DNA of 64,000 nucleotides from assembly GCA_026399475.1 (NCBI GenBank), contig JAPLQY010000015.1, positions 62,001 through 126,000 of the forward strand, given 5' to 3'. The DNA is from Rhodocyclales bacterium. GTDB taxonomy: Bacteria; Pseudomonadota; Gammaproteobacteria; Burkholderiales; Rhodocyclaceae. The position numbers were made by a program, and so were the translations under genes. The notes beneath the pieces are model-generated. The model was not told the origin of the DNA and made no database searches. It saw only the letters and a program-made list of their open reading frames with translations. How positions within the stretch are numbered: the stretch's first letter is position 1; each line of letters begins with the position of its first letter. This document shows positions 1 through 25,269 of this stretch, one piece after another.

Positions 1-1011
1 ATGCCGGCGATGTCGTGGGATATGCTCGGCAGCCTGCTCTCGGCCGCCATCGTCATTTCGCTGGTCGGGTTCATGGAAGCCATTTCCATCGCCAAGGCCA
101 TCGCCGCCAAGACCAAGCAAAAGATCGACCCGAACCAGGAACTCATCGGTCAGGGTCTGGCCAACCTGGTCGGTTGCGCCACTCAGGCGTTTCCGGTTTC
201 CGGTTCCTTTTCGCGCTCGGCGGTGAACATCAATGCCGGCGCAATCACCGGCATGTCCTCGGTGTTCACCGGCCTGTTCGTGCTGCTGACGTTGCTGTTC
301 CTGACGCCGCTGCTCTACCATTTGCCGCAGGCGGTGCTGGCGGCGGTGATCATCATGGCGGTGATCGGCCTGATCAATTTCGAGGCCATCAAGCACGCCT
401 GGAAAGCCAGCAAGCATGACGGCACAGCGGCGGTAGTCACCTTCGTCGCTACCCTCGCCTTTGCGCCGCATCTCGATAGCGGCATCATGATCGGGGCCGG
501 GTTGGCCATCGGCCTCTACCTGTATCGCACCATGTCGCCGCGAGTCGCAATTCTTGGTCGTCATGCCGACGGCAGCCTGCACGACGCCGCCGTTTACAAC
601 CTGCCGGCCTCGGACCTGGTGACGGCGGTGCGCTTCGACGGACGCCTCTATTTCGCCAATGTGTCCTTCTTCGAAGATGCGATTCTCGACGCCGTGGCGG
701 CCAACCCGAAAGCGCGCTACCTGCTGGTGGTCGGCAACGGCATCAACGAGCTGGACGCTTCGGGCGAGGAAGTCATGCATCATCTGGTCGAGCGGCTGCG
801 CGGCAATGGTGTCACGGTCGTCTTCTCCGGTCTGAAGAAGCAGGTGATCGACGTCATGCGTGCCACGGGCCTGTTCGACACCATTTCGCAGCAGCACATT
901 TTCGCCACCGCCGACATGGCGCTCGAAGCGATCCATGCCTGGGCTGCCGAGCGCGGCGAGGACGATGCCGCCAGCCCCTTGCGCCCCCTGCCGGCGAGGC
1001 GTTTTGGCTGA
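1..1011 (+). CDS. SulP family anion permease, C-terminal part with STAS domain (5' end probably outside window)
   Basis: Protein has SulP core (GFMEAISIAKAIAAK...NLVGCATQAFPVSGSFSRSAVN) and a C-terminal STAS-like domain; ORF begins at base 1. Confidence 0.9.
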   Translation: MPAMSWDMLGSLLSAAIVISLVGFMEAISIAKAIAAKTKQKIDPNQELIGQGLANLVGCATQAFPVSGSFSRSAVNINAGAITGMSSVFTGLFVLLTLLFLTPLLYHLPQAVLAAVIIMAVIGLINFEAIKHAWKASKHDGTAAVVTFVATLAFAPHLDSGIMIGAGLAIGLYLYRTMSPRVAILGRHADGSLHDAAVYNLPASDLVTAVRFDGRLYFANVSFFEDAILDAVAANPKARYLLVVGNGINELDASGEEVMHHLVERLRGNGVTVVFSGLKKQVIDVMRATGLFDTISQQHIFATADMALEAIHAWAAERGEDDAASPLRPLPARRFG

Positions 1012-1096: not shown

Positions 1097-3106
1097 ATGA
1101 CCAGCCTCCTTCCCATCGACGCCCTGCTGACTGCCGCCTGCGCCTGGCTGTCCATCGGATTACTCGGGCTGGTGGCACCGCGCAACACGAGCTTCATCAG
1201 CAAGACCCTGTTCCCGCTCGGCGCACTCGTCGGCCTGGTGGTCGGCCTGGTGGCGCTGGATTCGCTTGGCGGCCCGGCGCAAACCGCAGTCCTCGTCATT
1301 GGCCTGCCGGATCTGCCCTTCCATCTGCGCCTGGACAATCTTTCGGCCGTGTTTGCGTTGCTGCTAGGCTTCGTCTCGGTCGGCATCTCCATCTTTGCCG
1401 CCGGCTATTTCCGCAAGGGCGAAGGCACCGCACCCGGGGTGCTCTGTCTCGAATACCATATCTTCCTCGCCAGCATGCTGATGGTGCTGCTGGCCGACGA
1501 CGCCTATGCCTTCATGGTGGCATGGGAGACCATGGCGCTGTCATCGTTTTTTCTCGTCACCACCGATCATCGCCACGAGGAAATCCGCCGCGCCGGCTTT
1601 CTGTATCTCCTGATCGCCCACGTCGGCGCCATCGCCATCCTGTTGTCCTTCGGTGTCATGACCGGCGGGGCAGGCGACTACAGCTTCGCCGGCATGCGCG
1701 CCCAGCAACTGTCTCCGTTCTGGGCCTCGGCCGCCTACCTGCTCGCGCTGGCCGGCTTCGGCGCCAAGGCCGGCCTGGTGCCGCTCCACGTCTGGCTGCC
1801 CGAGGCGCATCCGGCCGCTCCCTCGCCGGTGTCGGCGATGATGAGCGGCGTGATGCTCAAGACGGCCATCTACGGCCTGCTGCGGGTGAGCTTTGACTTG
1901 CTGCACGCGACGATCTGGTGGTGGGGCGTGGTGGCGTTGGTGGTGGGACTGGTTACTGCCCTGTTCGGTGTGCTCTACAGCACGGTGCAAAATGACATGA
2001 AGCGGCTGCTGGCCTATTCTTCGATCGAGAACATCGGCCTCATCGCCGTCGGCATCGGCCTGACCCTGATTTTCCATGCTTATAGCATGGAAGCGCTGGC
2101 GGCACTGGCGATGACCGCGGTGCTGTACCACTGCCTGGCCCATGCCGGTTTCAAGAGCCTGTTGTTCCTGTGTACCGGTTCGGTGCTGCATGCGACGAAA
2201 GAACGCAATCTGGGCAAGCTCGGCGGACTGATCCACCGCATGCCCTGGGTGGCCTGGTTGGCTCTGGCGGGAGTGATTGCCAGCGCGGGTTTGCCTCCGC
2301 TCTCAGGATTCGTATCGGAGTGGCTGCTGCTGCAAAGCTTCCTGTTTTCTCCCGGCCTGCCGCATCCCTGGCTCAACATGGTGGTGCCGGTGGCGGCGGC
2401 GCTGGTGGTTCTCGTCGCCGCACTGGCCGGGTTCGCCATGGTCAAGTTCTATGGCATCGTCTTTCTCGGCCAGATGCGCGAGCCGGGGCTCAAGGACGCC
2501 CACGATGCCGGGGGGTGGGAGAAGGCCGGACTGGTATGGCTGGCGCTGATCACTTTGCTGCTCGGCGTCCTGCCGTCGACGGTGATATTGCGCATCGATG
2601 CCGCCACCCGCCAGTTGCTCGGCACCGGGCTCGCGGACAAGCTGCACGAGCAGGGCTGGTGGATGCTGGCGCCGATTTCGCCGGAGCGGGCCAGTTATGA
2701 ACCGCTGATCGTCCTGGTCACGATTGCCGCCACCCTGCTGCTGGGGCGCTGGCTGGTGCGCAGCCTCTATCATGGTCGCGTCCGCCGTACCACCGCCTGG
2801 GACTGCGGCTACTACTTCGAGGGGCCGCGGGCGCAGGACACGGCCGAGGGCTTCAGCCAGCCGATCCGCCGCATCTTCGACGCCATGTTCCGCCTGGAGA
2901 TACATTTTCCGACGGCGCGCGACACAAAGCCCTACTACAGCGTCAAGGTCGAGGATCATTTCTGGTATTGGCTCTACCTGCCGGTGGCCGGTCTGGTCGG
3001 TCGGGTGTCCACGCTCGTCACTGTCCTTCAGGGAGGACGAATCGCGGTCTATCTGATGTACAGCTTTATCACCCTGCTGGTGCTCCTGCTGGTGGCGCGG
3101 CCATGA
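1097..3106 (+). CDS. hyfB: Hydrogenase-4 subunit B-like / NuoL-type antiporter-like membrane subunit
   Basis: 669 aa, proton-conducting transporter family core (PLHVWLPEAHPAAPSPVSAMMSGVMLK). Confidence 0.9.
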   Translation: MTSLLPIDALLTAACAWLSIGLLGLVAPRNTSFISKTLFPLGALVGLVVGLVALDSLGGPAQTAVLVIGLPDLPFHLRLDNLSAVFALLLGFVSVGISIFAAGYFRKGEGTAPGVLCLEYHIFLASMLMVLLADDAYAFMVAWETMALSSFFLVTTDHRHEEIRRAGFLYLLIAHVGAIAILLSFGVMTGGAGDYSFAGMRAQQLSPFWASAAYLLALAGFGAKAGLVPLHVWLPEAHPAAPSPVSAMMSGVMLKTAIYGLLRVSFDLLHATIWWWGVVALVVGLVTALFGVLYSTVQNDMKRLLAYSSIENIGLIAVGIGLTLIFHAYSMEALAALAMTAVLYHCLAHAGFKSLLFLCTGSVLHATKERNLGKLGGLIHRMPWVAWLALAGVIASAGLPPLSGFVSEWLLLQSFLFSPGLPHPWLNMVVPVAAALVVLVAALAGFAMVKFYGIVFLGQMREPGLKDAHDAGGWEKAGLVWLALITLLLGVLPSTVILRIDAATRQLLGTGLADKLHEQGWWMLAPISPERASYEPLIVLVTIAATLLLGRWLVRSLYHGRVRRTTAWDCGYYFEGPRAQDTAEGFSQPIRRIFDAMFRLEIHFPTARDTKPYYSVKVEDHFWYWLYLPVAGLVGRVSTLVTVLQGGRIAVYLMYSFITLLVLLLVARP

Positions 3107-3274
3107 GAATGACCCGCCGACCCCAACCCTCCCTCGCGGGAGGGAGATTGCGTGCTCGCTACGCTCGTTTTTCACGGGGTGCTCCGTTGGGCCGCGTGTG
3201 CCGTTGTTCGCTTCGCGAACGCGTCGCTTCGCCTTGGGACGGCCCGGCGGCGAAGCTGGGCCGAGGGTCTTGCC

Positions 3275-4231
3275 ATGATTAGCATTTCCGGTTTCTTCGG
3301 CCAGGTATTTGCGATCCTGCTGGCGCTGGTGCTGGCGCCACTGCTGTCGGGCTGGGTGGGGCAATGCCGCGCCTGGCTGCAGAGCCGCAGCGCACCGCCT
3401 TTGTTGCTGCCCTATTACATGCTGCAAAAGCTCTTCCACAAGGACGTGGTACTGGCACATAACGCTTCATCGCTGTTCCGTGCCGCGCCTTTTGTCGTCT
3501 TTGGCTGCATGGTGCTGGCGTGCGCCATCGTGCCCACGCTGTCCACCGACCTGCCCTTTGCCCCGGCCGCCGATGCGCTGGCGCTGGTCGGCGTGTTCGG
3601 TCTGGCGCGCATCTTCATTTCGCTGGCGGGCATGGATGTCGGCACCGCCTTCGGCAGCCTCGGCGGACGGCGCGAAATGCTGATCGGCTTCCTCGCCGAG
3701 CCGGCGTTGCTGATGGTGATTTTCACGCTGGCCATGATCGCCCAGTCGACCTCGGTCGCCACCATCGTCGAGACGCTGGCGCATCGCGAGTTGGTCATCT
3801 ATCCGAGCCTCGCCTTCGCCGGCGTCGCCTTCACCTTCGTCTCGCTGGCCGAGAACGCCCGCGTCCCGGTCGACAACCCGGCCACGCACCTCGAACTGAC
3901 GATGATCCATGAAGCCATGATCCTGGAGTACACGGGCCGTCACCTGGCGCTGCTCGAATGGGCCGCCAGCCTCAAGCTGTATGCCTACTCCTGCCTCGGC
4001 CTGGCGCTGTTCTTTCCCTGGGGCATCGCCGCCGGCGACAGCTTTCCCGCCCTGCTGGCGGCCATTCCACTGCTGCTGCTGAAGCTCGCGATCGGCGGTT
4101 TTCTGCTCGCCGGCATCGAGACCGTGAACGCCAAAATGCGCATCTTCCGCGCGCCGGAATTTCTCGGCACCGCCTTCATGCTGGCCGTGCTCGGCCTGCT
4201 GGTGCGACTGCTGCTGGAGGCCAGGGTATGA
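3275..4231 (+). CDS. hyfC: Hydrogenase-4 subunit C-like / NuoH-type membrane subunit
   Basis: In-frame ATG at 3275 inside the longer ORF 3152..4231; NuoH/HyfC-like sequence (ENARVPVDNPATHLELTMIHEAMILEYTG). Confidence 0.9.
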   Translation: MISISGFFGQVFAILLALVLAPLLSGWVGQCRAWLQSRSAPPLLLPYYMLQKLFHKDVVLAHNASSLFRAAPFVVFGCMVLACAIVPTLSTDLPFAPAADALALVGVFGLARIFISLAGMDVGTAFGSLGGRREMLIGFLAEPALLMVIFTLAMIAQSTSVATIVETLAHRELVIYPSLAFAGVAFTFVSLAENARVPVDNPATHLELTMIHEAMILEYTGRHLALLEWAASLKLYAYSCLGLALFFPWGIAAGDSFPALLAAIPLLLLKLAIGGFLLAGIETVNAKMRIFRAPEFLGTAFMLAVLGLLVRLLLEARV

Positions 4232-4896
4232 ACGTCGCCATCCCGTTCTCCGCCCAGCTCATCAACCTTTTCGCCTCGGTGATCCTGCTGCTGGCCTTCG
4301 CCATGCTGGCGCAGCGCAGGGTACTGGCGCTGATCAACCTGTTCGCCCTGCAGGGACTGGCCCTGTGCCTGGCGACGCTGGTGGCGGCCGTGACCACCAG
4401 CCAGTCCCACCTGTATTACTCGGCCGGGCTGACGCTGACGCTCAAAGTGCTGCTGCTGCCCTGGATCCTGCATCGGCTGGTGCGCAAGCTCAACGTCAAG
4501 GGCGAAGTCGAGGCCCTGATCAACATCCCGACCACGATGCTGGCGGGCATTGTCCTGGTGATGGTCGCCTTCAATGTCGCGCTGCCGATCTCGGACCTCT
4601 CCCACACCATCACGCGCGGCACGCTCGGCATCGCCCTGGCGGTGGTGATGCTGGCTTTCCTCATGATGATCACTCGGCAGAAGGCCATCACCCAGGTGGT
4701 CGGCTTCCTTTCCATGGAAAACGGTCTCTTTCTCGCCGCCACCAGCGCCACCTACGGCATGCCGATGGTGGTCGAACTGGGCATTGCGCTCGACGTGCTG
4801 GTCGGGGTGATCATCCTCGGCGTGTTTTTCTTCCAGATTCGCGACCAGTTCGACAGTCTCGACATCCGGCACATGGAACGGCTCAAAGACAGCTGA
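4228..4896 (+). CDS. hyfE: Hydrogenase-4 subunit E-like membrane subunit
   Basis: ATG at 4228 overlaps the preceding stop (ATGA); HyfE/NuoK-like hydrophobic sequence. Confidence 0.85.
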   Translation: MNVAIPFSAQLINLFASVILLLAFAMLAQRRVLALINLFALQGLALCLATLVAAVTTSQSHLYYSAGLTLTLKVLLLPWILHRLVRKLNVKGEVEALINIPTTMLAGIVLVMVAFNVALPISDLSHTITRGTLGIALAVVMLAFLMMITRQKAITQVVGFLSMENGLFLAATSATYGMPMVVELGIALDVLVGVIILGVFFFQIRDQFDSLDIRHMERLKDS

Positions 4897-5051: not shown

Positions 5052-6503
5052 ATGGACTTCTTCATCCTCATGCTCGCCATTCCCATCGTCAGCGGTGCAC
5101 TGTTGACGGTGTTTGGCGAGCGCGACTGGGCGCCCAACCTCAACATCATCGCCAGCTTCGGAACTTTCCTTGCCGCTGTCGGGCTGACTGTCGAGATCGT
5201 CGCCAACGGACCGCGTTTCGCCTTTGGCGAGCAGTTCTTCATCGATTCGCTGAATGTGTTCTTCGTCACGCTGACCGCGTTTGTCGGCCTGACCACCAGC
5301 ATCTTTTCCGGTCCCTACATGAGGAACGAGCAGGAGCACGGCCGCCTCAGCAAGCCGCGCCTGCGCCTCTACAAGAGCATGTACCAGCTCTTCATGTTCA
5401 CCATGCTGGCGGCGCTGACCACCAACAACCTCGGTATCCTCTGGGTGGCCATGGAAGCGGCGACGCTGACCACCGTGCTGCTGGTGTCGCTCTATCGCAC
5501 TCCGGCCAGCCTCGAAGCCGCGTGGAAGTATTTCATCCTCTGCGGAGTCGGCATCGCCCAGGCGCTGTTCGGCACCATCCTGCTCTACTTCGCCGCCGAG
5601 CGCGTACTGGGCGAGGCCGGAAATGCATTGTTGTGGACGCATCTCGTCGACGTCAAGGGCCAGCTCGAACCCACGATCATGGCCCTGTCCTTCATCTTCC
5701 TGCTGGTCGGCTATGGCACCAAGGTGGGCCTGGCGCCGCTGCACAACTGGTTGCCGGATGCCCACGCCGAAGGTCCGACGCCGGTGTCTGCCGTGCTGTC
5801 CGGCCTGTTGCTCAATGTCGCGCTCTACGCCATCCTGCGCTGCAAGGTACTGGCCGATGGCGCCATTCCCGGTAATTTCGCCGGCAATCTGATGATGGGT
5901 TTCGGCCTGTTCACGCTTCTGGTCGCGGCCTTCTTTCTCTCGCGACAAAAGGATGTCAAGCGCATGTTCGCCTATTCGTCCATCGAGCACATGGGCCTCA
6001 TCACCTTTGCTTTCGGCATGGGCGGTCCGGTGGCCAGCTTCGCCGGCCTGCTGCACATGACCATGCACTCGCTGACCAAGTCCGCCATCTTCTTTGCGGT
6101 AGGCCACGCCACGCAGAAGACCGGCACCCAATTGATGGAAAACATTCGCGGCCTGATCAAGATCAACCCGCTGATCGGCTGGGGCCTGATGCTCGGCACG
6201 CTGGCCATCCTCGGCATGCCGCCCTTTGGCGTCTTCGCCAGCGAATTCATGATCCTCACCCACGCCATGAAACACTATCCGTGGGCGACGCCGGTGCTGC
6301 TGCTGGCACTGGGCGTGGCCTTCGCCGCCATTTTCGGCAAGGTGCAGCCCATGGTGTTCGGCGAGACCGAGGCCAAGCGCCTGCCGCATGCGCCCGCCAT
6401 CACGCCGGTGTTCCTGCACCTGGGCATCGTGCTGATGCTGGGCCTCTACATTCCGCCCTATCTCACGCGCTGGTTCCATGAAGCTGCGCGCATGCTGAGC
6501 TGA
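5052..6503 (+). CDS. hyfF: Hydrogenase-4 subunit F-like antiporter-like membrane subunit
   Basis: 483 aa, proton-conducting transporter family (APLHNWLPDAHAEGPTPVSAVLSG). Confidence 0.9.
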   Translation: MDFFILMLAIPIVSGALLTVFGERDWAPNLNIIASFGTFLAAVGLTVEIVANGPRFAFGEQFFIDSLNVFFVTLTAFVGLTTSIFSGPYMRNEQEHGRLSKPRLRLYKSMYQLFMFTMLAALTTNNLGILWVAMEAATLTTVLLVSLYRTPASLEAAWKYFILCGVGIAQALFGTILLYFAAERVLGEAGNALLWTHLVDVKGQLEPTIMALSFIFLLVGYGTKVGLAPLHNWLPDAHAEGPTPVSAVLSGLLLNVALYAILRCKVLADGAIPGNFAGNLMMGFGLFTLLVAAFFLSRQKDVKRMFAYSSIEHMGLITFAFGMGGPVASFAGLLHMTMHSLTKSAIFFAVGHATQKTGTQLMENIRGLIKINPLIGWGLMLGTLAILGMPPFGVFASEFMILTHAMKHYPWATPVLLLALGVAFAAIFGKVQPMVFGETEAKRLPHAPAITPVFLHLGIVLMLGLYIPPYLTRWFHEAARMLS

Positions 6504-6505
6504 TC

Positions 6506-8080
6506 ATGTTTCTCTGCGACGATTCCACCATTGAATTCACGCGGCAACCCGGGGTCGGCGCGCCGATCTGGCGCGGCCGCGCTCCGAGCGGCGAGGATCT
6601 CAGGAGCTTCGCCGCCGCCGCGCATCTGGCCGGCGGACGTTTGGCGGCGATCTGGGGCAGTGATGAGCGACGGCGCGCAGGCGGCTATCGCTTGCATTGC
6701 GTCTTCGGCCTCGACGGCGGCCATGCCTGGCTGAGCCTCGAACTACCGGTCGATGAGCCCGTCTATCTCGATCTGTCCGGCATATTTCCGGCAGCCAATC
6801 GCATGCAGCGCGCCACCCGCGACATGGTCGGAATTGCCACGGACGGAGGCGACCAGCGGCCCTGGCTGCGTCATGGGGCGTGGCCGGCGGACTGGTATCC
6901 ATTGCGGCACGATGCCGAACATGGTGTAGGGATGGGCCTCGGCTTTCCCAATTTTCCAAGCAACTATGACTTCGTCCAGGTCGGTGGCGAGGGAGCCCAC
7001 GAAATTCCGGTCGGTCCGATTCATGCCGGAATCATCGAGCCGGGCCATTTCAGGTTTTCGGTAGTCGGCGAGCGTGTGCTGCGCCTGGAGGAGCGTTTTG
7101 GCTACCAGCACAAGGGCGTCGAGAAACTGTTCATCGGCGCGGATGTCGGGCATGGCGCGCGGCTGGTCGGCCGCATTTCAGGCGATTCCACCTGCGCCTA
7201 CGCCTGGGCCTACGCTGACGCGATCGAGGCGGCGTGCCGGGTCGAGGTGCCGCCGCGGGCACTGCTGCTGCGAGCGCTGATGCTGGAACGCGAGCGCGTC
7301 GCCAACCATCTGGGCGATCTGGGCGCCTTGGGCAATGACGCCGCCTTCGCCTTCGGCCTCACCCAGTTCCTGCGCCTGAAGGAAGACTGGCTGCGCCTCA
7401 ACAGTCAGATGTTCGGCCACCGCTTCATGATGGATTGCGTCGTGCCCGGCGGTGTCGTCGCGGATGTCGGGTCGTCGGCGCTGACCGCGCTGGTCGAGCA
7501 ATGTGCTGTCATCGGCACGGAGGTGAAGAAACTGCGCGCACTCTACGACGAGCACTCCGGCTTGCAGGATCGTTTTGTGACCACCGGAATCGTTGGCGCC
7601 GCCCTGGCGCGCGAACTGTCGCTGACCGGCATGGCCGCCCGCGCCAGCGGCATTCTCCTCGACGGCCGGGCCTATCGACAGGGCTACACGCCGCCGCCGC
7701 CCTATGCGGCGCTGGGCGTGCGCCCGGTCACCGACGAGCGCGGCGACGTGGCCGCGCGCGTGGCCGTGCGCTTCGACGAAATCTCGGAATCGCTGCGCTT
7801 GTTGCGCGAGATTGCTGTCGGCATGCCGTCGGGTGCTACGCGGGCAGACGTCAATCCCGTTGGTGATGCCAGCGGGCTAGGCGTGATCGAAGGCTGGCGC
7901 GGCGAGGTGCTGGTCGGCGTCCAGTTCGACCACGACGGCAGGCTGGCCCGCGTCCATCCGCACGACCCCTCGTGGCAGGCCTGGCCGGCGATCGAACACG
8001 CGGTGATGAAGGATATCGTCCCCGACTTCCCGCTGATCAACAAGTCCTTCAACCTTTCCTATTCCGGAGCCGACCTGTGA
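6506..8080 (+). CDS. Hydrogenase-4 large subunit-like (HyfG/NuoCD-like) lacking NiFe cysteine pairs; Ehr-type
   Basis: NuoD/HyfG-like core (GPIHAGIIEPGHFRF...EERFGYQHKGVEKL); L1 region reads GRISGDSTCAYAWAYA and C-terminal L2 region reads HDPSWQAWPAIE. Confidence 0.88.
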   Translation: MFLCDDSTIEFTRQPGVGAPIWRGRAPSGEDLRSFAAAAHLAGGRLAAIWGSDERRRAGGYRLHCVFGLDGGHAWLSLELPVDEPVYLDLSGIFPAANRMQRATRDMVGIATDGGDQRPWLRHGAWPADWYPLRHDAEHGVGMGLGFPNFPSNYDFVQVGGEGAHEIPVGPIHAGIIEPGHFRFSVVGERVLRLEERFGYQHKGVEKLFIGADVGHGARLVGRISGDSTCAYAWAYADAIEAACRVEVPPRALLLRALMLERERVANHLGDLGALGNDAAFAFGLTQFLRLKEDWLRLNSQMFGHRFMMDCVVPGGVVADVGSSALTALVEQCAVIGTEVKKLRALYDEHSGLQDRFVTTGIVGAALARELSLTGMAARASGILLDGRAYRQGYTPPPPYAALGVRPVTDERGDVAARVAVRFDEISESLRLLREIAVGMPSGATRADVNPVGDASGLGVIEGWRGEVLVGVQFDHDGRLARVHPHDPSWQAWPAIEHAVMKDIVPDFPLINKSFNLSYSGADL

Positions 8081-8589
8081 TTCCGCTGCTGCGCCATATC
8101 TTCCGCACCGGCATTCTTACCGAGCCCACGCCGATACCGGACGGCGGGCCGCAGCGCGAGATCGACCGGCTGCACGATGAAATCCTGCATGTCCTCGGTC
8201 GGGCGCTGACCATCCGCGAGGTCGATGCCGGCTCCTGCAATGGCTGCGAGCTGGAGATCCATGCCCTCAACAACCCCTACTACAACCTCGAGGGTCGCGG
8301 CATCAAGTTTGTCGCCAGCCCGCGCCATGCCGACATGCTGCTGGTGACCGGGCCGGTGACCAAGAATATGGAGAATGCGCTGCGCATCGCCTATGACTGC
8401 ACGCCCGATCCCAAGCTGGTAGTGGCGGTGGGTGACTGCGGCTGCAATGGCGGCGTGTTCGGCGAGAGCTATGCCAGTTGCGGCCCAATCGAGAACGTGG
8501 TTGGCGTCGATCTGCGCATTCCCGGCTGCCCGCCAACGCCGCTGGCCCTGATGCAGGGCATTCTGGCGGCGGTGCGCACGTCCAGGTAG
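8077..8589 (+). CDS. hyfI: Hydrogenase-4 small subunit-like / NuoB-like Fe-S subunit
   Basis: GTG start overlapping upstream stop; conserved cluster ligands CNGCE, GDCGCNGG and PGCPPTP. Confidence 0.9.
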   Translation: MIPLLRHIFRTGILTEPTPIPDGGPQREIDRLHDEILHVLGRALTIREVDAGSCNGCELEIHALNNPYYNLEGRGIKFVASPRHADMLLVTGPVTKNMENALRIAYDCTPDPKLVVAVGDCGCNGGVFGESYASCGPIENVVGVDLRIPGCPPTPLALMQGILAAVRTSR

Positions 8590-9285: not shown

Positions 9286-10362
9286 TCAGGCCTCGCCGTC
9301 CACGGTCTCCAGTTGCCGCGAGCGCCAGTCGAGTATGGCGGTGCGCACGGCCATTCTGCCGGCGAGCTCGGGGAACTCGGTACGGATCACCTCGGCGGCG
9401 AAGGCGGAGAGGAAGCGGCTCTTGAGTTCGGCCCGTGCCCGATCGACGCCGATTTCGTCGTAGGGCACTGAGGCCAGCAGCAGGAAGCCGTCGTCGGGCA
9501 CACGTCCGGCCCGCATGTTGGCCTCGATGATGCCGGCGGCGGTGCGGATCGGCACGTCGAGGTTCGGACTGTAGGGGCCGATGATCAGCGCGAGGTTGGG
9601 TGTATGCAGGAAGTCGAAGCCGCGGCCGAGGCAGATCATCCACTCGCGGTGCTCGATGTCGAGCGCGCGCTCGGCGCGGCGCATCTGTGCGCGCACCTGC
9701 TCGATATGCTCAAGGTTTCCGTGCAGCAGAGGCATCAGGTCGGCACGCATCTGCGCCGGCATGTCCGGCAGCAGGGCGGCGAGATTGAGTTCCAGCGTGG
9801 CGCGGTCGGTCGAGCTCAAGGTGGACAGGTCGAGTTTTCGGCCGTCAGTGCCGTGAATGATCAGCGCGTCCTCGTCGGTCTCGAAGCCGCAGACCAGCGG
9901 ATAGACGGTGCCATGGGCCGCGCCGAAGATGTGCTCGACCTGGCGGCGGATTTCGTAGGTGTGGGCGATGGCGGCCTCGGTGTCGTAGTTGAAGCCGGCG
10001 CAGCCACGCTGCGGGTCGCCCTTCGAGTAGTGGTAGGTGATGAAGAAGATCAGCCTGCGGCCGCCGCTGACCATGCGTTGCACGTGGTGCGCCAGCACCT
10101 CGCCCAGGTGCGGCCAGCCGAGGTCGAACATGCCACCGAGATTGCGGAATGGCATCAGGATGCCGACGGGCGTGTTGGTGGCGACGGGAATGTTGATGCG
10201 GCCGTCCATGCATTTCAGCACCGCGATGGCGGTCGGATGCTCGGACAGGTAGCGTTCGCGCGCCAGCCACGCCTCCGGACTGCGGTAGTTGGCGCCGTGG
10301 CGGTCGGCAAGGTCGAACAGCCAGTCGATGCGCTGCTGTATCGGCTTACTGTGGATGTCCAT
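9286..10362 (-). CDS. Carbonic-anhydrase-like protein (carboxysomal CsoSCA / beta-CA-type zinc motif)
   Basis: CMDGR (CxDxR) followed by THYxx-type TYHYSKGDPQRGCAGF (H...C); start at MDIHSK with GGAGG spaced upstream. Confidence 0.7.
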   Translation of the reverse strand: MDIHSKPIQQRIDWLFDLADRHGANYRSPEAWLARERYLSEHPTAIAVLKCMDGRINIPVATNTPVGILMPFRNLGGMFDLGWPHLGEVLAHHVQRMVSGGRRLIFFITYHYSKGDPQRGCAGFNYDTEAAIAHTYEIRRQVEHIFGAAHGTVYPLVCGFETDEDALIIHGTDGRKLDLSTLSSTDRATLELNLAALLPDMPAQMRADLMPLLHGNLEHIEQVRAQMRRAERALDIEHREWMICLGRGFDFLHTPNLALIIGPYSPNLDVPIRTAAGIIEANMRAGRVPDDGFLLLASVPYDEIGVDRARAELKSRFLSAFAAEVIRTEFPELAGRMAVRTAILDWRSRQLETVDGEA

Positions 10363-11563
10363 GCTGCCTCCTGGAATCGCACCCGGCGTCGAGCAGCGTG
10401 TCACGATCCAGTCGGCGTACATCGATTACGCCGCACAGCGCCATGGCCACCGACATTTCCTTGTGCATGACCGAAAGCATGTGGGCGACGCCGGCCTCGC
10501 CGCGGGCGGCGACGGCATAGCCCCAGGCCCGCCCGAGCATGCAGGCTTTGGCGCCGAGCGAGAGCGCCTTGACCACATCCAGTCCGCTCCTCACGCCGCC
10601 GTCCATGAGCACCTCGAGGCGGTCGCCGACGGCGTCGACAATCCGCGGTAGCGCCTCGACGCTGGCGGCCACGCCGTCCAACTGGCGGCCGCCGTGATTC
10701 GACACCACCAGCCCGTCGGCACCAACCGCTGCCGCCTGGCGCGCATCGTCCACGTCGAGAATCCCCTTGAGCAGGATCTTGCCCGGCCAGTTTTCCCGCA
10801 CCCAGGCCAGGTCGTCCCAGGTGACGCGCGGATCGAACTGGCTATCCACCCAGGCCTTGAATTCCGGCAGGCTGCGCGCATCGGGTACGGCCGTCGTCAG
10901 GTTGCCGAACATCAGGGGTTGGCCCTTGATCGCCACGTCCAGCAGCCAGTGCGGATGCGAGATCAGGTCCCAGGCCTTGGCCAGCCGGCCCGCCAGCGGC
11001 AGTGCGCTGGCCATGCCATTGCGGGTGTCGCGATAGCGCGCCCCCATTACGGCCAGATCGACGGTCAACACCAGCACCGGGCAGCCGGCGGCCTGCGCCC
11101 GCGCCATTAGTTCCTTGGTATAGCTGCGATCGCGCATGACATAGAGCTGATACCAGAAGGGTGCCTTCGTCGCAGCGCGAACTTCCTCGATCGAACAGAT
11201 GGAAACAGTCGATTCGCAAAAGGCCACACCGGCTTGCTCAGCGGCGCGTGCCGCCTGCACCTCGGCCCGCCGCGCCATCGCGCCGGCCAGCCCGACCGGT
11301 GCGAGTATCAGCGGCAGGGCAAGATCCTGGCCCAGCACGCGGGTGTTCAAACTCAGCCGGGAGACATCGCGCATGACGCGCTGGCGCAGGCGCAGGCGAT
11401 TGAACGCCTGCTGATTCTCGCCTGCGGTCACTTCTTCATAAGCCGCGCCGTCGAGGTAATCGAACAAGTGTCGCGGCAGGCGCTTGCGCGCCAGTTCCCG
11501 GTAGTCGGCTGCCGTGGCGGGAGCAAGACCCAGTCCGCGAGTGCCATTGTCCATCACGCTCAT
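10346..11563 (-). CDS. lldD: FMN-dependent alpha-hydroxy acid dehydrogenase (LldD-like)
   Basis: LldD family signature GADGLVVSNHGGRQLDG, PVLVLTVDLAVMGARYRD; overlaps start of downstream CA-like gene. Confidence 0.85.
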   Translation of the reverse strand: MSVMDNGTRGLGLAPATAADYRELARKRLPRHLFDYLDGAAYEEVTAGENQQAFNRLRLRQRVMRDVSRLSLNTRVLGQDLALPLILAPVGLAGAMARRAEVQAARAAEQAGVAFCESTVSICSIEEVRAATKAPFWYQLYVMRDRSYTKELMARAQAAGCPVLVLTVDLAVMGARYRDTRNGMASALPLAGRLAKAWDLISHPHWLLDVAIKGQPLMFGNLTTAVPDARSLPEFKAWVDSQFDPRVTWDDLAWVRENWPGKILLKGILDVDDARQAAAVGADGLVVSNHGGRQLDGVAASVEALPRIVDAVGDRLEVLMDGGVRSGLDVVKALSLGAKACMLGRAWGYAVAARGEAGVAHMLSVMHKEMSVAMALCGVIDVRRLDRDTLLDAGCDSRRQHGHPQ

Positions 11564-17356: not shown

Positions 17357-18133
17357 ATGCCACGCTTTGCCGCAAACCTTTCCTATCTGTTTACCGAGCG
17401 TCCCTTTCTGGAGCGCTTTGCGGCGGCGCGCGCGGCAGGTTTCGCAGCCGTCGAGTTTCACTTCCCATACGAGTTTGACCGCGCCGCACTGGCCGAGGTG
17501 GTACTGACCTCGGGCCTGGAAGTCGTCCTGTTCAATCTGCCGCCGGGCGATTGGGCAGCGGGAGAGCGCGGCATTGCCTGCCACCCGCGGCGTATTGCGG
17601 AGTTCCAGGATGGTGTCGGGCAGGCCATTGACTACGCCCGCCTGCTGGGTTGCGGCCGACTCAATTGCCTGGCCGGAATAGCACCTGGCGGCATTACCCA
17701 CGACAAGGCGCGTGAAACCCTGATCGAAAACCTGCGCTTTGCCGCAGCCGTGACCGCGCGCGCGGGTATCGAACTGGTGCTGGAGCCGCTCAACACGCGT
17801 GACACGCCGGGCTTCCTCGTTGCCACCACGCGAACCGCGCTGGCGCTGATCAAGGCGGTTGGCAGTGAGAATCTGCGCCTGCAATACGACATTTACCACG
17901 CCCAGGTGATGGAGGGCGATCTGGCCCGTACGTTGCAGGAGCATCTGCCGCAGATCTCCCATATCCAGCTTGCGGACAATCCGGGGCGGCACGAGCCGGG
18001 TAGCGGCGAGATCAATTTCCCCTTTCTGTTTCAGCACCTCGACAGAATAGGCTACGCCGGCTGGGTCGGCTGCGAATACAAGCCAGGCGGGCGTACTGAA
18101 GACAGTTTCGGCTGGCTGGAGTCGTGGCGGTGA
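17357..18133 (+). CDS. hyi: Hydroxypyruvate isomerase
   Basis: MPRFAANLSYLFTERPFLERFAAA..., ELVLEPLNTRDTPGF, LQYDIYHAQ. Confidence 0.92.
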   Translation: MPRFAANLSYLFTERPFLERFAAARAAGFAAVEFHFPYEFDRAALAEVVLTSGLEVVLFNLPPGDWAAGERGIACHPRRIAEFQDGVGQAIDYARLLGCGRLNCLAGIAPGGITHDKARETLIENLRFAAAVTARAGIELVLEPLNTRDTPGFLVATTRTALALIKAVGSENLRLQYDIYHAQVMEGDLARTLQEHLPQISHIQLADNPGRHEPGSGEINFPFLFQHLDRIGYAGWVGCEYKPGGRTEDSFGWLESWR

Positions 18134-19440
18134 GCTATGGGCGGCAGCGGGCTTTGCTGCGAAGCCTGTTTGATGCGGCGGTTGCGGCTGCCGATCCGGC
18201 GCGCTGCCTGCCCGCATACTTGCCGGAGCCGCCCGCTTCACACGATTCATCAATGGGCCGCACGGTCGTTGTCGGCGCCGGCAAGGCCGCCGCTGCCATG
18301 GCCCGCGCTGTCGAGGATCACTGGCGCGGCGATCCGGAGCGACTCTCCGGCCTGGTCGTCACGCGCTACGGACACGGCGCTCCGACGCGGCGCATCGAAG
18401 TCGTCGAAGCCGCGCATCCGACACCCGATGCCGCGGGGCAAGCGGCGGCGGTGCGCATTCTCGACGCGGTAAAAGGGCTGACGCCGGACGACCTGGTGCT
18501 GGTGCTGCTCTCGGGGGGTGGTTCGGCCCTGCTTGCGGCCCCGATGGCAGGCGTCACGCTGGAACAGAAGCGCGCCGCGACCAAAGCCCTGCTGAGCTGC
18601 GGTGCCAGCATCGGCGAGATCAACTGCGTCAGGAAGCATCTCTCGGCCGTCAAGGGCGGCCGTCTGGCGCTCGCCGCCGCTCCCGCGCGAGTGCTGACGC
18701 TGGCGATTTCCGATGTACCCGGCGACGACCTGTCGACCATTGCCTCCGGCCCGACGGTGTCCGATCCGACAACTTGCGCTGACGCACTCGAAATCGTGAC
18801 TCGTTACGGTATTGAACTTTCCGCCTTCGCGCATCAGTCACTGCTGACGGGCGCCTGCGAAACGCCTAAGGCCGGCGACCCGCGTTTTTTGCGCTGCGAG
18901 TCGCACATCATCGCCACGGCGCAATCTGCGCTAGCGGCAGCGGCCGAGGTGGCGCGAGCGCAGGGCATCGCAGCGCTGGTCCTGGGTGACGCCATCGAAG
19001 GCGAGGCGCGCGAGGTGGCGCGCGTGCTGGGTGGCGTCGCGCTGTCCTGCGCCGCGCATGGAGTGCCGCTGGCGGCGCCCTGCGTGCTGCTCTCCGGCGG
19101 CGAAACTACCGTGACAGTAAGAGGCGGCGGGCGCGGCGGGCGCAATGCCGAATTCCTGCTCGGACTGGCGCTGGCACTCGGGGGGCATCGAAGCATCCAT
19201 GCCATCGCCTGTGATACCGATGGCATCGACGGTTCGGAAGACAATGCCGGTGCGCTGTTGCTGCCGGATACGACGGCGCGTGCCGCTGCCGCAGGAATTG
19301 ATTTGCGTGCGCGCCTGGCCGAGAATGACGCGTACAGCGTGTTCGCCGCGCTCGGCGACCTGGTCGTTACCGGGCCGACACGCACCAACGTCAACGACTT
19401 CAGGGCGATCCTGATCGAACCGACCCTCGAGGTGCCGTGA
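18124..19440 (+). CDS. ttuD: Glycerate 2-kinase / hydroxypyruvate reductase (MOFRL family)
   Basis: GAGKAAAAMA, LLSGGGSALL, GGETTVTVRGGGRGGRNAEFLLG. Confidence 0.9.
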   Translation: MAVSYGRQRALLRSLFDAAVAAADPARCLPAYLPEPPASHDSSMGRTVVVGAGKAAAAMARAVEDHWRGDPERLSGLVVTRYGHGAPTRRIEVVEAAHPTPDAAGQAAAVRILDAVKGLTPDDLVLVLLSGGGSALLAAPMAGVTLEQKRAATKALLSCGASIGEINCVRKHLSAVKGGRLALAAAPARVLTLAISDVPGDDLSTIASGPTVSDPTTCADALEIVTRYGIELSAFAHQSLLTGACETPKAGDPRFLRCESHIIATAQSALAAAAEVARAQGIAALVLGDAIEGEAREVARVLGGVALSCAAHGVPLAAPCVLLSGGETTVTVRGGGRGGRNAEFLLGLALALGGHRSIHAIACDTDGIDGSEDNAGALLLPDTTARAAAAGIDLRARLAENDAYSVFAALGDLVVTGPTRTNVNDFRAILIEPTLEVP

Positions 19441-19441
19441 A

Positions 19442-21121
19442 ATGAGCACTCGCGAGCAGAACGAACGGCTGTTGCAGGAACATCAGGCGATATTCGAGAA
19501 TGCCGCGATAGGCATCGTCTACAGTTGCGGCCACCGGATCGAGCGTTGCAACCGGCGCATCGCCGAACTCTTTGGCTACGAGGTGGTGGACCTGGTCGGC
19601 CGCGAAGCGGCAATTTTTTACGCGAACAATGACGACTACGTCCGGTTGAGTCAGGAGGCGCGGGTGGACTTGTTTGCAGGCCGCGCTTTTGTCGGCGATG
19701 TGGAAATGCGGCGCAAGGATGGAGCGGCGGTCCATGTCCATGTTTCAGGCCGGCTCATCGATGCAGCGGCTGCCGAACCGGCCGTGGTGTGGACGATTGA
19801 GGACGTCACCGATCAGCGGCGCATCGAACTCGCTCTTGATCTGGCCAAGCGCGAGACTGAGGCCATTTTTGACTCGGCGGTGATGGGCATCACGCTCGTC
19901 AGGCATCGCGTTATCGTGCGCTGCAATCGGCGCTTTGAAGAGCTGTTTGCCTGCGGACCCGGTGAGATGACCGGACTATCGACAAGGGCCTGGTACCTGA
20001 CCGACGAGGAGTACGCGAGTATCGGCGCGACAGCTTACGCGGCACTCAGTCAGAACAACTACCATTGTCGCCAGCAGCGCTTCCTGCGCAAGGACGGCAG
20101 CATCTTCTGGGGCGAGATAGCCGGACGCGCACTCGATCCGCAGCAGCCGCAGGAAGGCTCGGTGTGGCTGCTCGAGGACATCAGCGAACGACGGCAAATG
20201 CTGCAGCGCCTCGAGCTCGCCCAGCGCGTCCTGGACAGCAGTTCCGAGGCTGTTGTGGTGACCGACGCCGACAACCGCATCGTGTCGGTCAATCGGGCTT
20301 TTGAACGCATTACGGGGTTTTCTGCCGATGAAGTGCTGGGCCGCAATCCGGGGTACTTCAAGTCGGGGCGGCACGACGCAAGCTTCTTCCAGTCGATGTG
20401 GCAGAGCTTGCGCGACACGGGGCGCTGGCGGGGAGAAATCTGGGATCGGCGCAAGGATGGCAGCGTCTATCCGAAGCTTGCCAGCATCGATGTGGTACAG
20501 GATTCCAGCAGCGGCAAGGTGGCTAACTACGTTGCGGTTTTTTCCGACTTCAGCGAACGCAAGGCGACTGAGGAGCAGGTGAGCTACCTCGCGCACCATG
20601 ACCCCCTCACCGGCCTGTCCAACCGCCTGGCCCTTGGCCTGCATCTCGGACACCAGCTCGCCGTCGCCCGCCGTAACGGGACGCGGGTAGCGCTCCTGTT
20701 CATCGATCTCGACGGCTTCAAGCCGGTCAATGACCGCTATGGACATGCCGACGGCGACCGCTTGCTGGTCACCCTGGCCGCAAGGTTGCGGCAGCAGGCG
20801 CGGGAATCCGATCTGGTGGTGCGGCTCGGTGGCGATGAGTTCGTCATCGTGATGGAGGGAGGCTTCACCGACCAGAATCTGGCGACGATCGCGGCAGGCC
20901 TGGTAGCGACGGTTGCCGAGCCTTGCCCTCTTGCCGCCGGGGAAGTGCATGTGTCATGCAGCATAGGTATTGCCTGTGCGCCGCGGGATGGCGATACGCC
21001 GGACGCGCTGCTGAGCTGTGCCGATGCCGCCATGTACCGGGCAAAAGCGGCGGGTCGCGGTTGCCACGTGTTTTTCGAAGGTGGCACCGGCGATATGCAG
21101 CAAGGCGTGCCGTCAAATTAG
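19442..21121 (+). CDS. Multi-PAS diguanylate cyclase (GGDEF)
   Basis: Three PAS-like regions and intact RLGGDEF motif. Confidence 0.92.
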   Translation: MSTREQNERLLQEHQAIFENAAIGIVYSCGHRIERCNRRIAELFGYEVVDLVGREAAIFYANNDDYVRLSQEARVDLFAGRAFVGDVEMRRKDGAAVHVHVSGRLIDAAAAEPAVVWTIEDVTDQRRIELALDLAKRETEAIFDSAVMGITLVRHRVIVRCNRRFEELFACGPGEMTGLSTRAWYLTDEEYASIGATAYAALSQNNYHCRQQRFLRKDGSIFWGEIAGRALDPQQPQEGSVWLLEDISERRQMLQRLELAQRVLDSSSEAVVVTDADNRIVSVNRAFERITGFSADEVLGRNPGYFKSGRHDASFFQSMWQSLRDTGRWRGEIWDRRKDGSVYPKLASIDVVQDSSSGKVANYVAVFSDFSERKATEEQVSYLAHHDPLTGLSNRLALGLHLGHQLAVARRNGTRVALLFIDLDGFKPVNDRYGHADGDRLLVTLAARLRQQARESDLVVRLGGDEFVIVMEGGFTDQNLATIAAGLVATVAEPCPLAAGEVHVSCSIGIACAPRDGDTPDALLSCADAAMYRAKAAGRGCHVFFEGGTGDMQQGVPSN

Positions 21122-21270
21122 CCACCCATCATGCGAGCCCGAGGTCAAACTGACATGCGATGCCTGTCCCGATCCTCAGCCACAAGAGATGCGGCGGGGG
21201 TTTCCGGGTGTGACCCGCTCAATGGACGACTGGCCGCGCTTTCCCGAGGCGGCTCTGTGAAGGAGGAATA

Positions 21271-22773
21271 ATGGTTCAGCGCGAACATTCTGCCGATAAG
21301 GCGCAGGATTTTGCCGGCACGGATCGCGAGGCGCTGCTGGCCGAACTCGCGCGCCTGCTGCCACCCGACTCGCTGCTGTTTGCGGCCGAGGATTTGAAGC
21401 CCTACGAGTGCGACGGCCTTTCTGCCTATCACCAGTTGCCGATCGCGGTCGCCTTGCCGGAATCCGAGGCGCAGGTGGTGGCAGTGGTCAAGGCCTGTCG
21501 CGCGGCCGGTGCGCCGGTTGTCGCCCGAGGCGCAGGCACCGGGCTTTCGGCCGGTGCGTTGCCACATCCGCAGGGCGTGGTGCTGTCCCTGGCAAAACTG
21601 AAGAAAATTCTCCATGTTGACCCGGTGGCGCGCGTTGCCGTGGTGCAAACCGGAGTGCGCAACCTGGCCATTTCGGAGGCCGCCGCACTGCTGGGACTCT
21701 ATTACGCACCCGATCCGAGTTCGCAGATCGCCTGTACCATCGGTGGCAACGTGGCCGAAAATTCCGGTGGCGTGCATTGCCTGAAATACGGACTGACGCT
21801 GCACAACGTGCTGCGCGTGCGCGCGGTGATGATCACCGGCGATATTGTCGAATTTGGCAATCATGCACTCGATGCTCCCGGCTACGGCTTGCTGGCGCTG
21901 GCGATCGGTTCCGAGGGCATGCTGGCGGTCGTCACCGAAGTGACGGTCAAGCTGGTGCCGAAGCCGGAGCATGCCCAGGTGATCATGGCCAGTTTCGATG
22001 ATGTGATGAAGGCAGGCGAGGCCGTGGCGGAAGTCATTGCTGCCGGCATCATACCGGCCGGGCTGGAGATGATGGACAAGCCGGCTACTGCCGCCGTCGA
22101 GCCTTACGTGAAAGCCGGCTACGACCTGAATGCCGAGGCCATTCTGCTTTGCGAATCCGACGGTACGGCCGAGGAGGTCGCGGAAGAAATTGCGCGCATG
22201 AAAGCCGTGCTTGAAACCAGCGGCGCGACCGAGATCCGCGTCTCGCAATCGGAGCCTGAGCGCTTGCGTTTCTGGGCCGGGCGCAAGGCCGCTTTCCCGG
22301 CCGCAGGACGAATTTCGCCAGACTACTATTGCATGGATGGCACCATTCCGAGAAAGCGCCTGGGCGAAATGTTGACGGCGATCTATGCCATGGAGAAGAA
22401 ATACCGCTTGCGCTGCATCAACGTGTTTCATGCCGGCGACGGCAATCTGCATCCTCTGATCCTCTACGACGCCAACGTGGCCGGAGAGCTGGAACGGACC
22501 GAAGCCTTTGGTGCCGAGATCCTCAAGCTTTCGGTGGCGCTGGGGGGCACCATTACCGGCGAACATGGCGTGGGTTACGAGAAGATCAACTCGATGTGCG
22601 ACCAGTTCGGTTCCGACGAGTTGCGTGCCTTTCATGCGGTCAAGCGCGCGTTCGACCCGGAGGGTTTGCTGAATCCCGAGAAGGGCATCCCGACGCTGCA
22701 TCGCTGCGCAGAGTTCGGACGCATGCATGTGCATGGCGGCAACATCAAGTTTCCTGAACTGGAGCGCCTGTGA
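21271..22773 (+). CDS. glcD: Glycolate oxidase subunit GlcD
   Basis: FAD-linked oxidase fold, VVARGAGTGLSAGALP, GGTITGEHGVG. Confidence 0.93.
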   Translation: MVQREHSADKAQDFAGTDREALLAELARLLPPDSLLFAAEDLKPYECDGLSAYHQLPIAVALPESEAQVVAVVKACRAAGAPVVARGAGTGLSAGALPHPQGVVLSLAKLKKILHVDPVARVAVVQTGVRNLAISEAAALLGLYYAPDPSSQIACTIGGNVAENSGGVHCLKYGLTLHNVLRVRAVMITGDIVEFGNHALDAPGYGLLALAIGSEGMLAVVTEVTVKLVPKPEHAQVIMASFDDVMKAGEAVAEVIAAGIIPAGLEMMDKPATAAVEPYVKAGYDLNAEAILLCESDGTAEEVAEEIARMKAVLETSGATEIRVSQSEPERLRFWAGRKAAFPAAGRISPDYYCMDGTIPRKRLGEMLTAIYAMEKKYRLRCINVFHAGDGNLHPLILYDANVAGELERTEAFGAEILKLSVALGGTITGEHGVGYEKINSMCDQFGSDELRAFHAVKRAFDPEGLLNPEKGIPTLHRCAEFGRMHVHGGNIKFPELERL

Positions 22774-22960
22774 GCGCCGCGCGCAGGGCCGCCCCAAGCC
22801 GGCGCCAGTCAACCAATTGGAGCCGCCGATGGCGGCGAACTGCAGTCACCCCCTTCCTTGGGGCGGAGACGGGGTTTCACGGAGCACTGCTCCGCGCCGT
22901 CGAAGCCGGCTGGCTGTGCAAAGCCAGCCGTGGGGCAGGGGATGGGGGGGAGGTAGTCCA

Positions 22961-24016
22961 ATGAGTGCGGACCGGCTTGAAGAGTTCCGCTCGCGCATCC
23001 TCGAACGCAAACCGTTGCGGCTCCGGGGAGGCGGCAGCAAGGATTTTTATGGTGGGCCGCTGTCCGGCGAAGTACTGGACACGGGCGGTCATCGCGGTGT
23101 CGTCAGCTACGAACCGACGGAGCTGGTGATCACCGCGCGCTGTGGCACGCCGTTGGCCGAGCTGGAGTCGACGCTGGCGGAACGCCGACAGTTTCTTGCC
23201 TGCGAAGCGCCGAACTTTGGTTGCGCCACCATGGGTGGCGCCGTGGCTGCCGGGCTTTCCGGTCCGCGCCGGGCAATGGTTGGGAGCCTGCGCGACTTCG
23301 TCCTCGGAGTAAAGATCATGGATGGCGAGGGGCGCGTGCTCAGGTTCGGCGGCGAGGTGATGAAGAATGTTGCCGGCTTCGATGTCTCGCGGCTGATGGC
23401 GGGCAGCCTCGGCACGCTGGGCCTGATTCTCGAAGTGTCGCTCAAGGTGCTACCGCTGCCAGTGGCCGACGCGACACTGCGTTTCGAGTTACCGCAGGAC
23501 AAGGCGCTGGATGCCGTGAACAGGTGGGCCGGGCAGCCTCTGCCGCTGGTGGCGACGTGCTGGCAGGCCGGGATTCTGACACTGCGACTGTCCGGTGCAC
23601 AAGCCGCAGTTGCCGCGGCCTGTCAGAAGCTGGGAGGCGAGTCGCTTGCCGATCCGGCAGCCGCGGCAGCGTTCTGGCTTGCCCTGCGCGAGCAGACCGC
23701 TGAGTTTTTTGCCGGAGATGCCCCGTTGTGGAGGTTTTCTGTGCCCTCTGTGACTCCGCCGCTGGAACTGCCCGGCGCCTCTTTGCTGGAGTGGGGCGGG
23801 GCGCAGCGCTGGATGCGTACCGACACCGATCCATCCCTGCTGCACCAGGCGGCAGCGAAGGCAGGCGGGCATGCAACCCTGTTTCGCGGCGGCGACAAGG
23901 CGAGCGGTGTTTTCGCACCCCTGTCCCCGGTGCTGATGGAAGTGCACCGCCGTCTCAAGCAAAGCTTCGATCCTTACGGCGTATTCAACCCCGGCCGCCT
24001 GTATCCGGAACTGTGA
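22961..24016 (+). CDS. glcE: Glycolate oxidase FAD-binding subunit GlcE
   Basis: ATG at 22961 within longer ORF; RLEEFRSRILERKPLRLRGGGSKDFYGGP. Confidence 0.9.
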   Translation: MSADRLEEFRSRILERKPLRLRGGGSKDFYGGPLSGEVLDTGGHRGVVSYEPTELVITARCGTPLAELESTLAERRQFLACEAPNFGCATMGGAVAAGLSGPRRAMVGSLRDFVLGVKIMDGEGRVLRFGGEVMKNVAGFDVSRLMAGSLGTLGLILEVSLKVLPLPVADATLRFELPQDKALDAVNRWAGQPLPLVATCWQAGILTLRLSGAQAAVAAACQKLGGESLADPAAAAAFWLALREQTAEFFAGDAPLWRFSVPSVTPPLELPGASLLEWGGAQRWMRTDTDPSLLHQAAAKAGGHATLFRGGDKASGVFAPLSPVLMEVHRRLKQSFDPYGVFNPGRLYPEL

Positions 24017-24027
24017 AATCCTGAACC

Positions 24028-25269
24028 ATGGAAACCCATCTCGCCGATTTCATTCGTCATACTTCCGCCGGCCGCGAGGCCGAGGAGATCCTGCGCCGCT
24101 GTGTGCATTGCGGGTTTTGTACCGCGACCTGTCCGACCTACCAATTGCTGGGTGACGAGCTTGACGGTCCGCGCGGACGCATTTATCTGATCAAGCAAGT
24201 GCTGGAAGGCGCCCAGCCGACGACAAAGACCCGCCTGCATCTCGACCGCTGCCTGAGCTGTCGTTCCTGCGAGAGCACCTGTCCTTCGGGCGTGCATTAC
24301 ACGCGCCTGCTCGACATCGGTCGCGAAGTGGTTGAAAGCAAGGTGCCGCGCACGGGCATCGATGCAGTGATGCGCGGCGCGCTGAAAAATCTTTTGCCGC
24401 GTTCGACGCTGTTCGGTGCGGCGATGAAGATGGGGCAGGCGGTGCGGCTCATGTTGCCAGGGGTGCTGCGCGCCAAGGTGCCGCCGCTTTCTTCGGCCGG
24501 CCCTGCGCCACACCGCAGCCACGCCAGAAAAATGATCGCGCTGGCCGGCTGTGTCCAGCCCTCGATGTATCCCAACGTCAACGGCGCAACCCGGCGCGTG
24601 CTGGATCGCCTTGGCATCCAGATGATCGAAGCGGCAGGGGCGGGTTGTTGCGGCGCGGTGCGGGCGCATCTCAACGCCGCGGAAGGCGCGCGCGACGACG
24701 CGCGGCGCAACATCGACGCCTGGTGGCCACTGCTCGAAGCCGGCGCGGAAGGACTGGTGATGACGGCTTCAGGCTGTGCCTCGCATGTGCTCGAATATGC
24801 CCATCTGCTGCAGGAAGATCCCGACTACGCGGTGAAGGCGGCGCGGGTGGTGCTGGCGACGCGCGATATCAGCGAAGTCATTACGGCGGAAGCGGTGGAA
24901 CTCGCGTCCCTTCTGCAGGCCTGTGGCCCCGTGCCGGAGAACGAACGCATGATGGCGTTTCACAGCCCGTGCAGCCTCCAGCATGGGCTCAAAATCCGCG
25001 GTACCGTCGAATCCCTGCTGATTGCTGCCGGATACACACTGACTGCCGTGGCCGACTCGCACCTGTGCTGTGGCTCGGCGGGCACCTACTCGGTTTTGCA
25101 GCCGGTGCTTTCACAGCAGCTGCTGGACAACAAGCTCACCGCGCTGACGGCCGGCCTGCCTGCCGCGATAGCCAGCGCAAACGTGGGCTGCATCGGGCAC
25201 CTGCAGGGCGCTACCACCTTGCCGGTGAAACACTGGATTGAAGTGCTCGACGAGCGCTTGTCATCATGA
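24028..25269 (+). CDS. glcF: Glycolate oxidase iron-sulfur subunit GlcF
   Basis: Two 4Fe-4S motifs (CVHCGFCTATCPTY, CLSCRSCESTCPSG) and CCG motifs. Confidence 0.93.
   Translation: METHLADFIRHTSAGREAEEILRRCVHCGFCTATCPTYQLLGDELDGPRGRIYLIKQVLEGAQPTTKTRLHLDRCLSCRSCESTCPSGVHYTRLLDIGREVVESKVPRTGIDAVMRGALKNLLPRSTLFGAAMKMGQAVRLMLPGVLRAKVPPLSSAGPAPHRSHARKMIALAGCVQPSMYPNVNGATRRVLDRLGIQMIEAAGAGCCGAVRAHLNAAEGARDDARRNIDAWWPLLEAGAEGLVMTASGCASHVLEYAHLLQEDPDYAVKAARVVLATRDISEVITAEAVELASLLQACGPVPENERMMAFHSPCSLQHGLKIRGTVESLLIAAGYTLTAVADSHLCCGSAGTYSVLQPVLSQQLLDNKLTALTAGLPAAIASANVGCIGHLQGATTLPVKHWIEVLDERLSS

Follow-up and report, generated by a model that had tools for sequence, protein, structure and literature searches.

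A compact CsoSCA-type beta-carbonic anhydrase gene outside a carboxysome context and its recurring neighbourhood with Ehr and DAB genes

The window analysed here is a 64,000-nucleotide stretch of a Rhodocyclales contig (JAPLQY010000015.1, positions 62,001 to 126,000). On its reverse strand, at 9286..10362, lies a gene for a compact CsoSCA-type beta-carbonic anhydrase of 358 aa (csoSCA2), identified by Pfam CsoSCA_cat, Foldseek and invariant residues. The ORF (10362..9286) opens with an ATG preceded by AGGAGG, a good ribosome-binding site, and its start is overlapped by 17 nt by the end of the upstream gene, which encodes an FMN-dependent alpha-hydroxyacid (L-lactate-type) dehydrogenase (10346..11563, reverse strand; Pfam FMN_dh, 437 bits; NCBIfam PRK11197, above cut-off). 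This LldD was rejected as a functional partner, because it overlaps csoSCA2 here yet adjoins it at no other locus.

Tail-to-tail with csoSCA2, on the forward strand, is a cluster that reads SulP, then EhrB, C, E, F, G and I. The window opens within the gene for a SulP-family anion transporter, of which it holds the 3' part (1..1011; Pfam Sulfate_transp and STAS); the full protein has 718 aa and starts 1146 bases ahead of the window (ORF at L090:10855-13011). The genes that follow encode a putative EhrB/HyfB-like antiporter-type membrane subunit of 669 aa, called from its ORF and its homology to members of other Ehr loci (1097..3106); an EhrC/HyfC-like (NuoH-type) subunit (3152..4231; Pfam NADHdh, 114.8 bits); an EhrE/HyfE-like subunit (4228..4896), its start placed by inspection within a longer ORF (3958-4896) and its homologous cluster (c42) found at the same place in L092, L110, L097 and L105; an EhrF/HyfF-like antiporter-type subunit (5052..6503; Pfam Proton_antipo_M, 182.8 bits); EhrG, a fused 30-kDa/49-kDa (NuoCD/HyfG-like) subunit (6506..8080; Pfam Complex1_49kDa and Complex1_30kDa); and EhrI, a NuoB/HyfI-like Fe-S subunit (8077..8589; Pfam Oxidored_q6, 105.6 bits). 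EhrI retains a CxxC and further Cys (Fe-S cysteines), and its likely start is a GTG at 8077 within a mechanical ORF running from 7972. The nickel-binding motifs RxCGxC and DPCxxC were both missing from this EhrG and from 10 related EhrG sequences, which rules out EhrG as a Group 4 NiFe hydrogenase and means that the cluster does not encode one.

The nearest solved relatives of the SulP protein are the sulfate transporters SULTR4;1 and SLC26-type, nearer than BicA, and it scores under the BicA equivalog cut-off; bicarbonate transport by this SulP was therefore not accepted as proven. An insertion of ~150 residues, at roughly 215-365 and including a coiled-coil-like stretch, separates the two profile matches of the 718-aa protein. 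About 4 kb upstream is a second putative SulP gene, read from its sequence (L090:3673-6795, reverse strand), to which C-terminal universal-stress-protein-like domains are apparently fused.

Further along the window, 7-15 kb from csoSCA2, a glycolate/glycerate salvage cluster occupies 17357-25269 on the forward strand and includes a PAS-type sensor. It comprises hydroxypyruvate isomerase (hyi, 17357..18133; NCBIfam TIGR03234, 381 bits, above cut-off), a glycerate 2-kinase-like protein (18124..19440; NF041176, 246.8 bits, below the equivalog cut-off) and the glycolate oxidase genes glcD, glcE and glcF (21271..25269, at 21271-22773, about 22961-24016 and 24028-25269). GlcF scored above its cut-off (638.8 bits), GlcD reached 753.7 bits (under a strict cut-off of 897) and GlcE was read from the frame. 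Glycolate genes were rejected as a general csoSCA2 partner: none lay near other csoSCA2 loci within the available flanks.

A first-pass annotation, made from the letters alone, had likened the csoSCA2 protein to CsoSCA on the strength of a motif. Residues 51-55 read CMDGR and residues 110-121 read YHYSKGDPQRGC, so the pattern it described was right, although its distance of about 65 residues was a little high (Cys51 to His111 is 60). The His111-to-Cys121 spacing is 10; in Halothiobacillus CsoSCA the corresponding residues C173, H242 and C253 are spaced by 69 and 11 (PMC12646314). Searched against Pfam at E values up to 10, the protein matched CsoSCA_cat (PF20686) alone, at 29.8 bits against a cut-off of 21.5, and no match to Pro_CA (PF00484) was found. 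CsoSCA entries also came first in a sequence search of the PDB (2fgy, E=3e-5). Across 52 aligned homologues the zinc ligands C51, H111 and C121 and the Asp-Arg dyad D53 and R55 were invariant, and these five residues align with those of three longer, RuBisCO-linked CsoSCA sequences from other genomes, which are probably carboxysomal. Because the Pfam score, the 2fgy match and the five invariant catalytic residues agree, the CsoSCA pattern is more than chance, and the resemblance to CsoSCA held up.

The predicted structure agreed with the sequence searches. An AlphaFold2 model of the protein was confident (pLDDT 93.5, pTM 0.90), and Foldseek placed CsoSCA structures at ranks 1 to 5 (E about 1e-16 to 1e-17; 2fgy, E=7.5e-18), with query-normalised TM-scores of 0.71-0.76 compared to about 0.2-0.4 for classical beta-carbonic anhydrases. 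The classical enzymes (PF00484, for example CcaA and E. coli Can) share the Cys-His-Cys zinc site and Asp-Arg dyad, but the long His-to-Cys spacing of the window protein differs from their HxxC, as the first-pass annotation had judged, and its structural similarity to them is much lower. With carboxysomal CsoSCA (PDB 2FGY, 8THM, 9G4T) the protein has the catalytic-domain fold and active-site residues in common; it differs in its low identity (about 20-27%), its shorter loops, its lack of the N-terminal RuBisCO-binding/hook region and the absence of accompanying shell or carboxysome genes. The N-terminus is short (about 40 residues), without the hook insertion, and consists of two helices (8-26 and 29-41) ahead of the catalytic Cys at residue 51.

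These features make the product a member of the already described CsoSCA2 family, an assignment based on a score far under the cut-off of the carboxysomal equivalog TIGR02701 in NCBIfam (40.7 bits versus 241.05), the missing hook domain and the lack of a shell-protein match in the genome. The family was described in 2022 (PMC9164163) and reappeared in 2024 as a "non-cso" orphan cluster (PMC11086599); both papers report it as shorter than CsoSCA with the catalytic residues retained and term it unstudied or uncharacterised, and the former names Accumulibacter among its hosts. The window protein itself does not differ from the family, sharing its compact length, CsoSCA fold, zinc ligands, Asp-Arg dyad, lack of a hook and location outside cso operons. 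Neighbours described as hydrogenases or permeases are already on record for the family (PMC9164163, PMC11086599). New here is that the hydrogenase-like neighbours at these loci are NiFe-less Ehr or DAB, and that the association is quantified; a literature search on Ehr/Hyf-like complexes, SulP and carbonic anhydrase in combination returned nothing.

The first-pass annotation had seen no shell or RuBisCO genes in the window and placed the gene outside a carboxysome context. Both statements stand, and the second extends to the genome, in which a family search gave no match to BMC shell proteins. Elsewhere the genome encodes one RuBisCO, of form II (NF010002, 906 bits versus 489), in a cluster that reads cbbR-cbbY-cbbM-cbbQ-cbbO, of which the profile-based call covers cbbM only. 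It also contains one classical beta-carbonic anhydrase match (PF00484), and DabA was not found. Since the assembly is a draft whose contamination is estimated at about 9%, these genome-level statements carry the proviso that a contig might be foreign; RuBisCO was present in each of the 16 genus members sampled.

To place this neighbourhood in context, we compared 80 plus about 40 csoSCA2 loci, with DabA identity confirmed by Pfam (749 bits). After near-duplicates and carboxysomal-type copies had been dropped, 73 loci were scored: 13 had DAB, 11 Ehr and 3 SulP only, these positives being lower bounds, and 46 had none within flanks of at least 4.5 kb on each side. Among 40 carrier genomes, Ehr lay within 10 kb of csoSCA2 in 8 of 14 Ehr-bearing genomes (0.095 expected at random), DabA within 10 kb in 5 of 18 DabA-bearing genomes (0.112 expected) and RuBisCO within 50 kb in 6 (1.2 expected), although these Poisson figures treat related genomes as independent and the tree is the better guide. 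On that tree, a quick one with some long branches, the Ehr pairing required 9 changes, 6 of them forced by well-supported branches (two further Ehr loci, L097 and L120, were left out), and the DAB pairing required 6 with carboxysomal copies excluded. The Ehr label was not significantly clustered (58 of 500 shuffles gave a value as low), a result compatible with repeated gain and loss. The pairings of csoSCA2 with Ehr and with DAB are far more frequent than chance would give, and they recur across the tree. A single conserved neighbourhood was not found across the whole family, and contexts are lineage-specific.

Individual loci illustrate the range of arrangements. In L080 and L097, ehrBCEFGI precedes csoSCA2 on one strand (ehrE was not resolved in L080, in which 34 nt separate ehrI from csoSCA2), and in L117 and L118 the order is dabA, dabB, csoSCA2, again on one strand. 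Within 20 kb, L092 and L110 combine SulP-Ehr, csoSCA2, a putative regulator, cbbR and cbbLSQO, and in L027 csoSCA2 lies between DAB and cbbM, the latter 2 kb away.

Several other features were seen at these loci. In L044:11669-21060, and also in L022, L027, L076 and L081, the genes encode DabA, DabB and three more NuoL/M/N-type antiporter subunits, a larger system than the two-gene DAB2. Downstream of ehrBCEFGI-csoSCA2 in L097 (4388-10365), genes on the same strand read as purE, purK and purC; PurK is a bicarbonate-using enzyme. In a Rhodocyclaceae-type group (L010, L022, L044, L051, L067, L068 and L105), the gene immediately upstream of csoSCA2, read from the same strand, encodes an iron-containing alcohol dehydrogenase. 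In Accumulibacter loci (L009, L013, L030, L041 and others) csoSCA2 directly follows cysN in a sulfate-assimilation gene run, and at Dechloromonas-type loci csoSCA2 and a sulfate-binding-protein gene are divergently oriented.

RuBisCO tracked csoSCA2 in part of the sample. Within the same order, outside the family of the window, it was present in 16 of 16 carriers compared to 4 of 16 sampled non-carriers (one of these four matched weakly). With all 80 genomes counted, 30 of 40 carriers and 22 of 40 non-carriers had RuBisCO, a non-significant difference (p=0.10), since RuBisCO also occurs in non-carriers that belong to the window's genus. RuBisCO is missing from the other 10 of 40 carriers, which points to a broader role, presumably inorganic-carbon supply with CO2 fixation as a common but not the sole client.

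We consider it likely that CsoSCA2 is a soluble, non-encapsulated and catalytically competent carbonic anhydrase, predicted to be cytosolic, which balances CO2 and HCO3- for non-carboxysomal carboxylation as part of an inorganic-carbon supply set. Zinc held by Cys51, His111 and Cys121, together with the type I beta-carbonic anhydrase dyad Asp53-Arg55, would catalyse the exchange between CO2 and HCO3- there. Inorganic carbon would be imported or energised by SulP and the NiFe-less, complex-I-like Ehr, or by DAB in other species; for Ehr itself, this involvement with inorganic carbon is hypothesised from the neighbourhood. Equilibration of this pool by CsoSCA2 would give RuBisCO (form II here) and other carboxylases the form that each needs, imported HCO3- being equilibrated with CO2 to feed the form II enzyme and HCO3- staying available to the others. 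Form II RuBisCO requires high CO2, and the nearby glycolate-salvage genes are consistent with a cell exposed to CO2 limitation and to oxygenation by RuBisCO. A free cytosolic carbonic anhydrase would short-circuit the HCO3- accumulation of a classical carboxysome-type CO2-concentrating mechanism, and the role must therefore differ from that one. Against this reading stand the 46 scored loci without any of the neighbours sought, including the Accumulibacter group beside sulfate-assimilation genes, the greater similarity of SulP to sulfate transporters than to BicA, and the carriers without RuBisCO, which show that CO2 fixation is not a universal role. Nor are Ehr and csoSCA2 obligate partners, since many genomes carry the former and lack the latter.

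That independence of Ehr also counts against a more specific proposal, in which CsoSCA2 would be a subunit or docked partner of Ehr, forming a redox- or ion-gradient-driven vectorial CO2-hydrating machine like CupA on NDH-1MS or DabA in DAB. The repeated adjacency, the same-strand placement of csoSCA2 right behind ehrI in L080 and L097, the SulP gene that heads several Ehr clusters and the missing NiFe site of EhrG, which implies a reaction other than H2 conversion, all speak for such a partnership. Ehr loci also resemble those of DAB and the cyanobacterial NDH-1MS CO2-uptake complexes in encoding antiporter-type membrane subunits with a carbonic anhydrase-like protein, but the Ehr clusters showed no homologue of DabA or CupA. 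As csoSCA2 is also found beside DAB, a system with its own DabA, and at loci that have neither Ehr nor DAB, we regard the docked-partner proposal as unlikely. It is similarly doubtful that NiFe-less Ehr, SulP and CsoSCA2 constitute a third type of energy-coupled CO2/HCO3- uptake besides NDH-1MS and DAB, with CsoSCA2 as the CO2-hydrating component.

The lack of Ehr, DAB or SulP at most loci, and of RuBisCO in some carriers, could alternatively mean that CsoSCA2 is a general housekeeping carbonic anhydrase whose neighbours mirror the organisation of autotroph genomes and not a shared pathway. Such an enzyme would be redundant with the classical beta-carbonic anhydrase match in this genome, and the neighbour enrichment is far above chance and recurrent, which leaves this explanation improbable. 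Hydrolysis of COS or CS2, known for some enzymes of the beta-carbonic anhydrase fold, would suit the copies behind cysN or divergent from the sulfate-binding-protein gene and the sulfate-transporter-like SulP, but it is very unlikely here, since the window protein has the active site of CsoSCA, an enzyme active in CO2 hydration, and the link to Ehr, DAB and RuBisCO points to carbon, not sulfur.

The location of csoSCA2 beside membrane complexes and transporters associated with uptake of inorganic carbon, here and in many other bacteria, suggests a role in supplying CO2 or bicarbonate, and the repeated proximity to Ehr and DAB is what merits further study. Why CsoSCA2 is so widespread and what it does were questions raised by the 2022 review that gave the family its name (PMC9164163), and they become testable through the link measured here with DAB, Ehr and RuBisCO. 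The link predicts co-expression at low CO2 and a high-CO2-requiring phenotype in non-carboxysomal autotrophs, and it gives the Ehr complex a functional lead.
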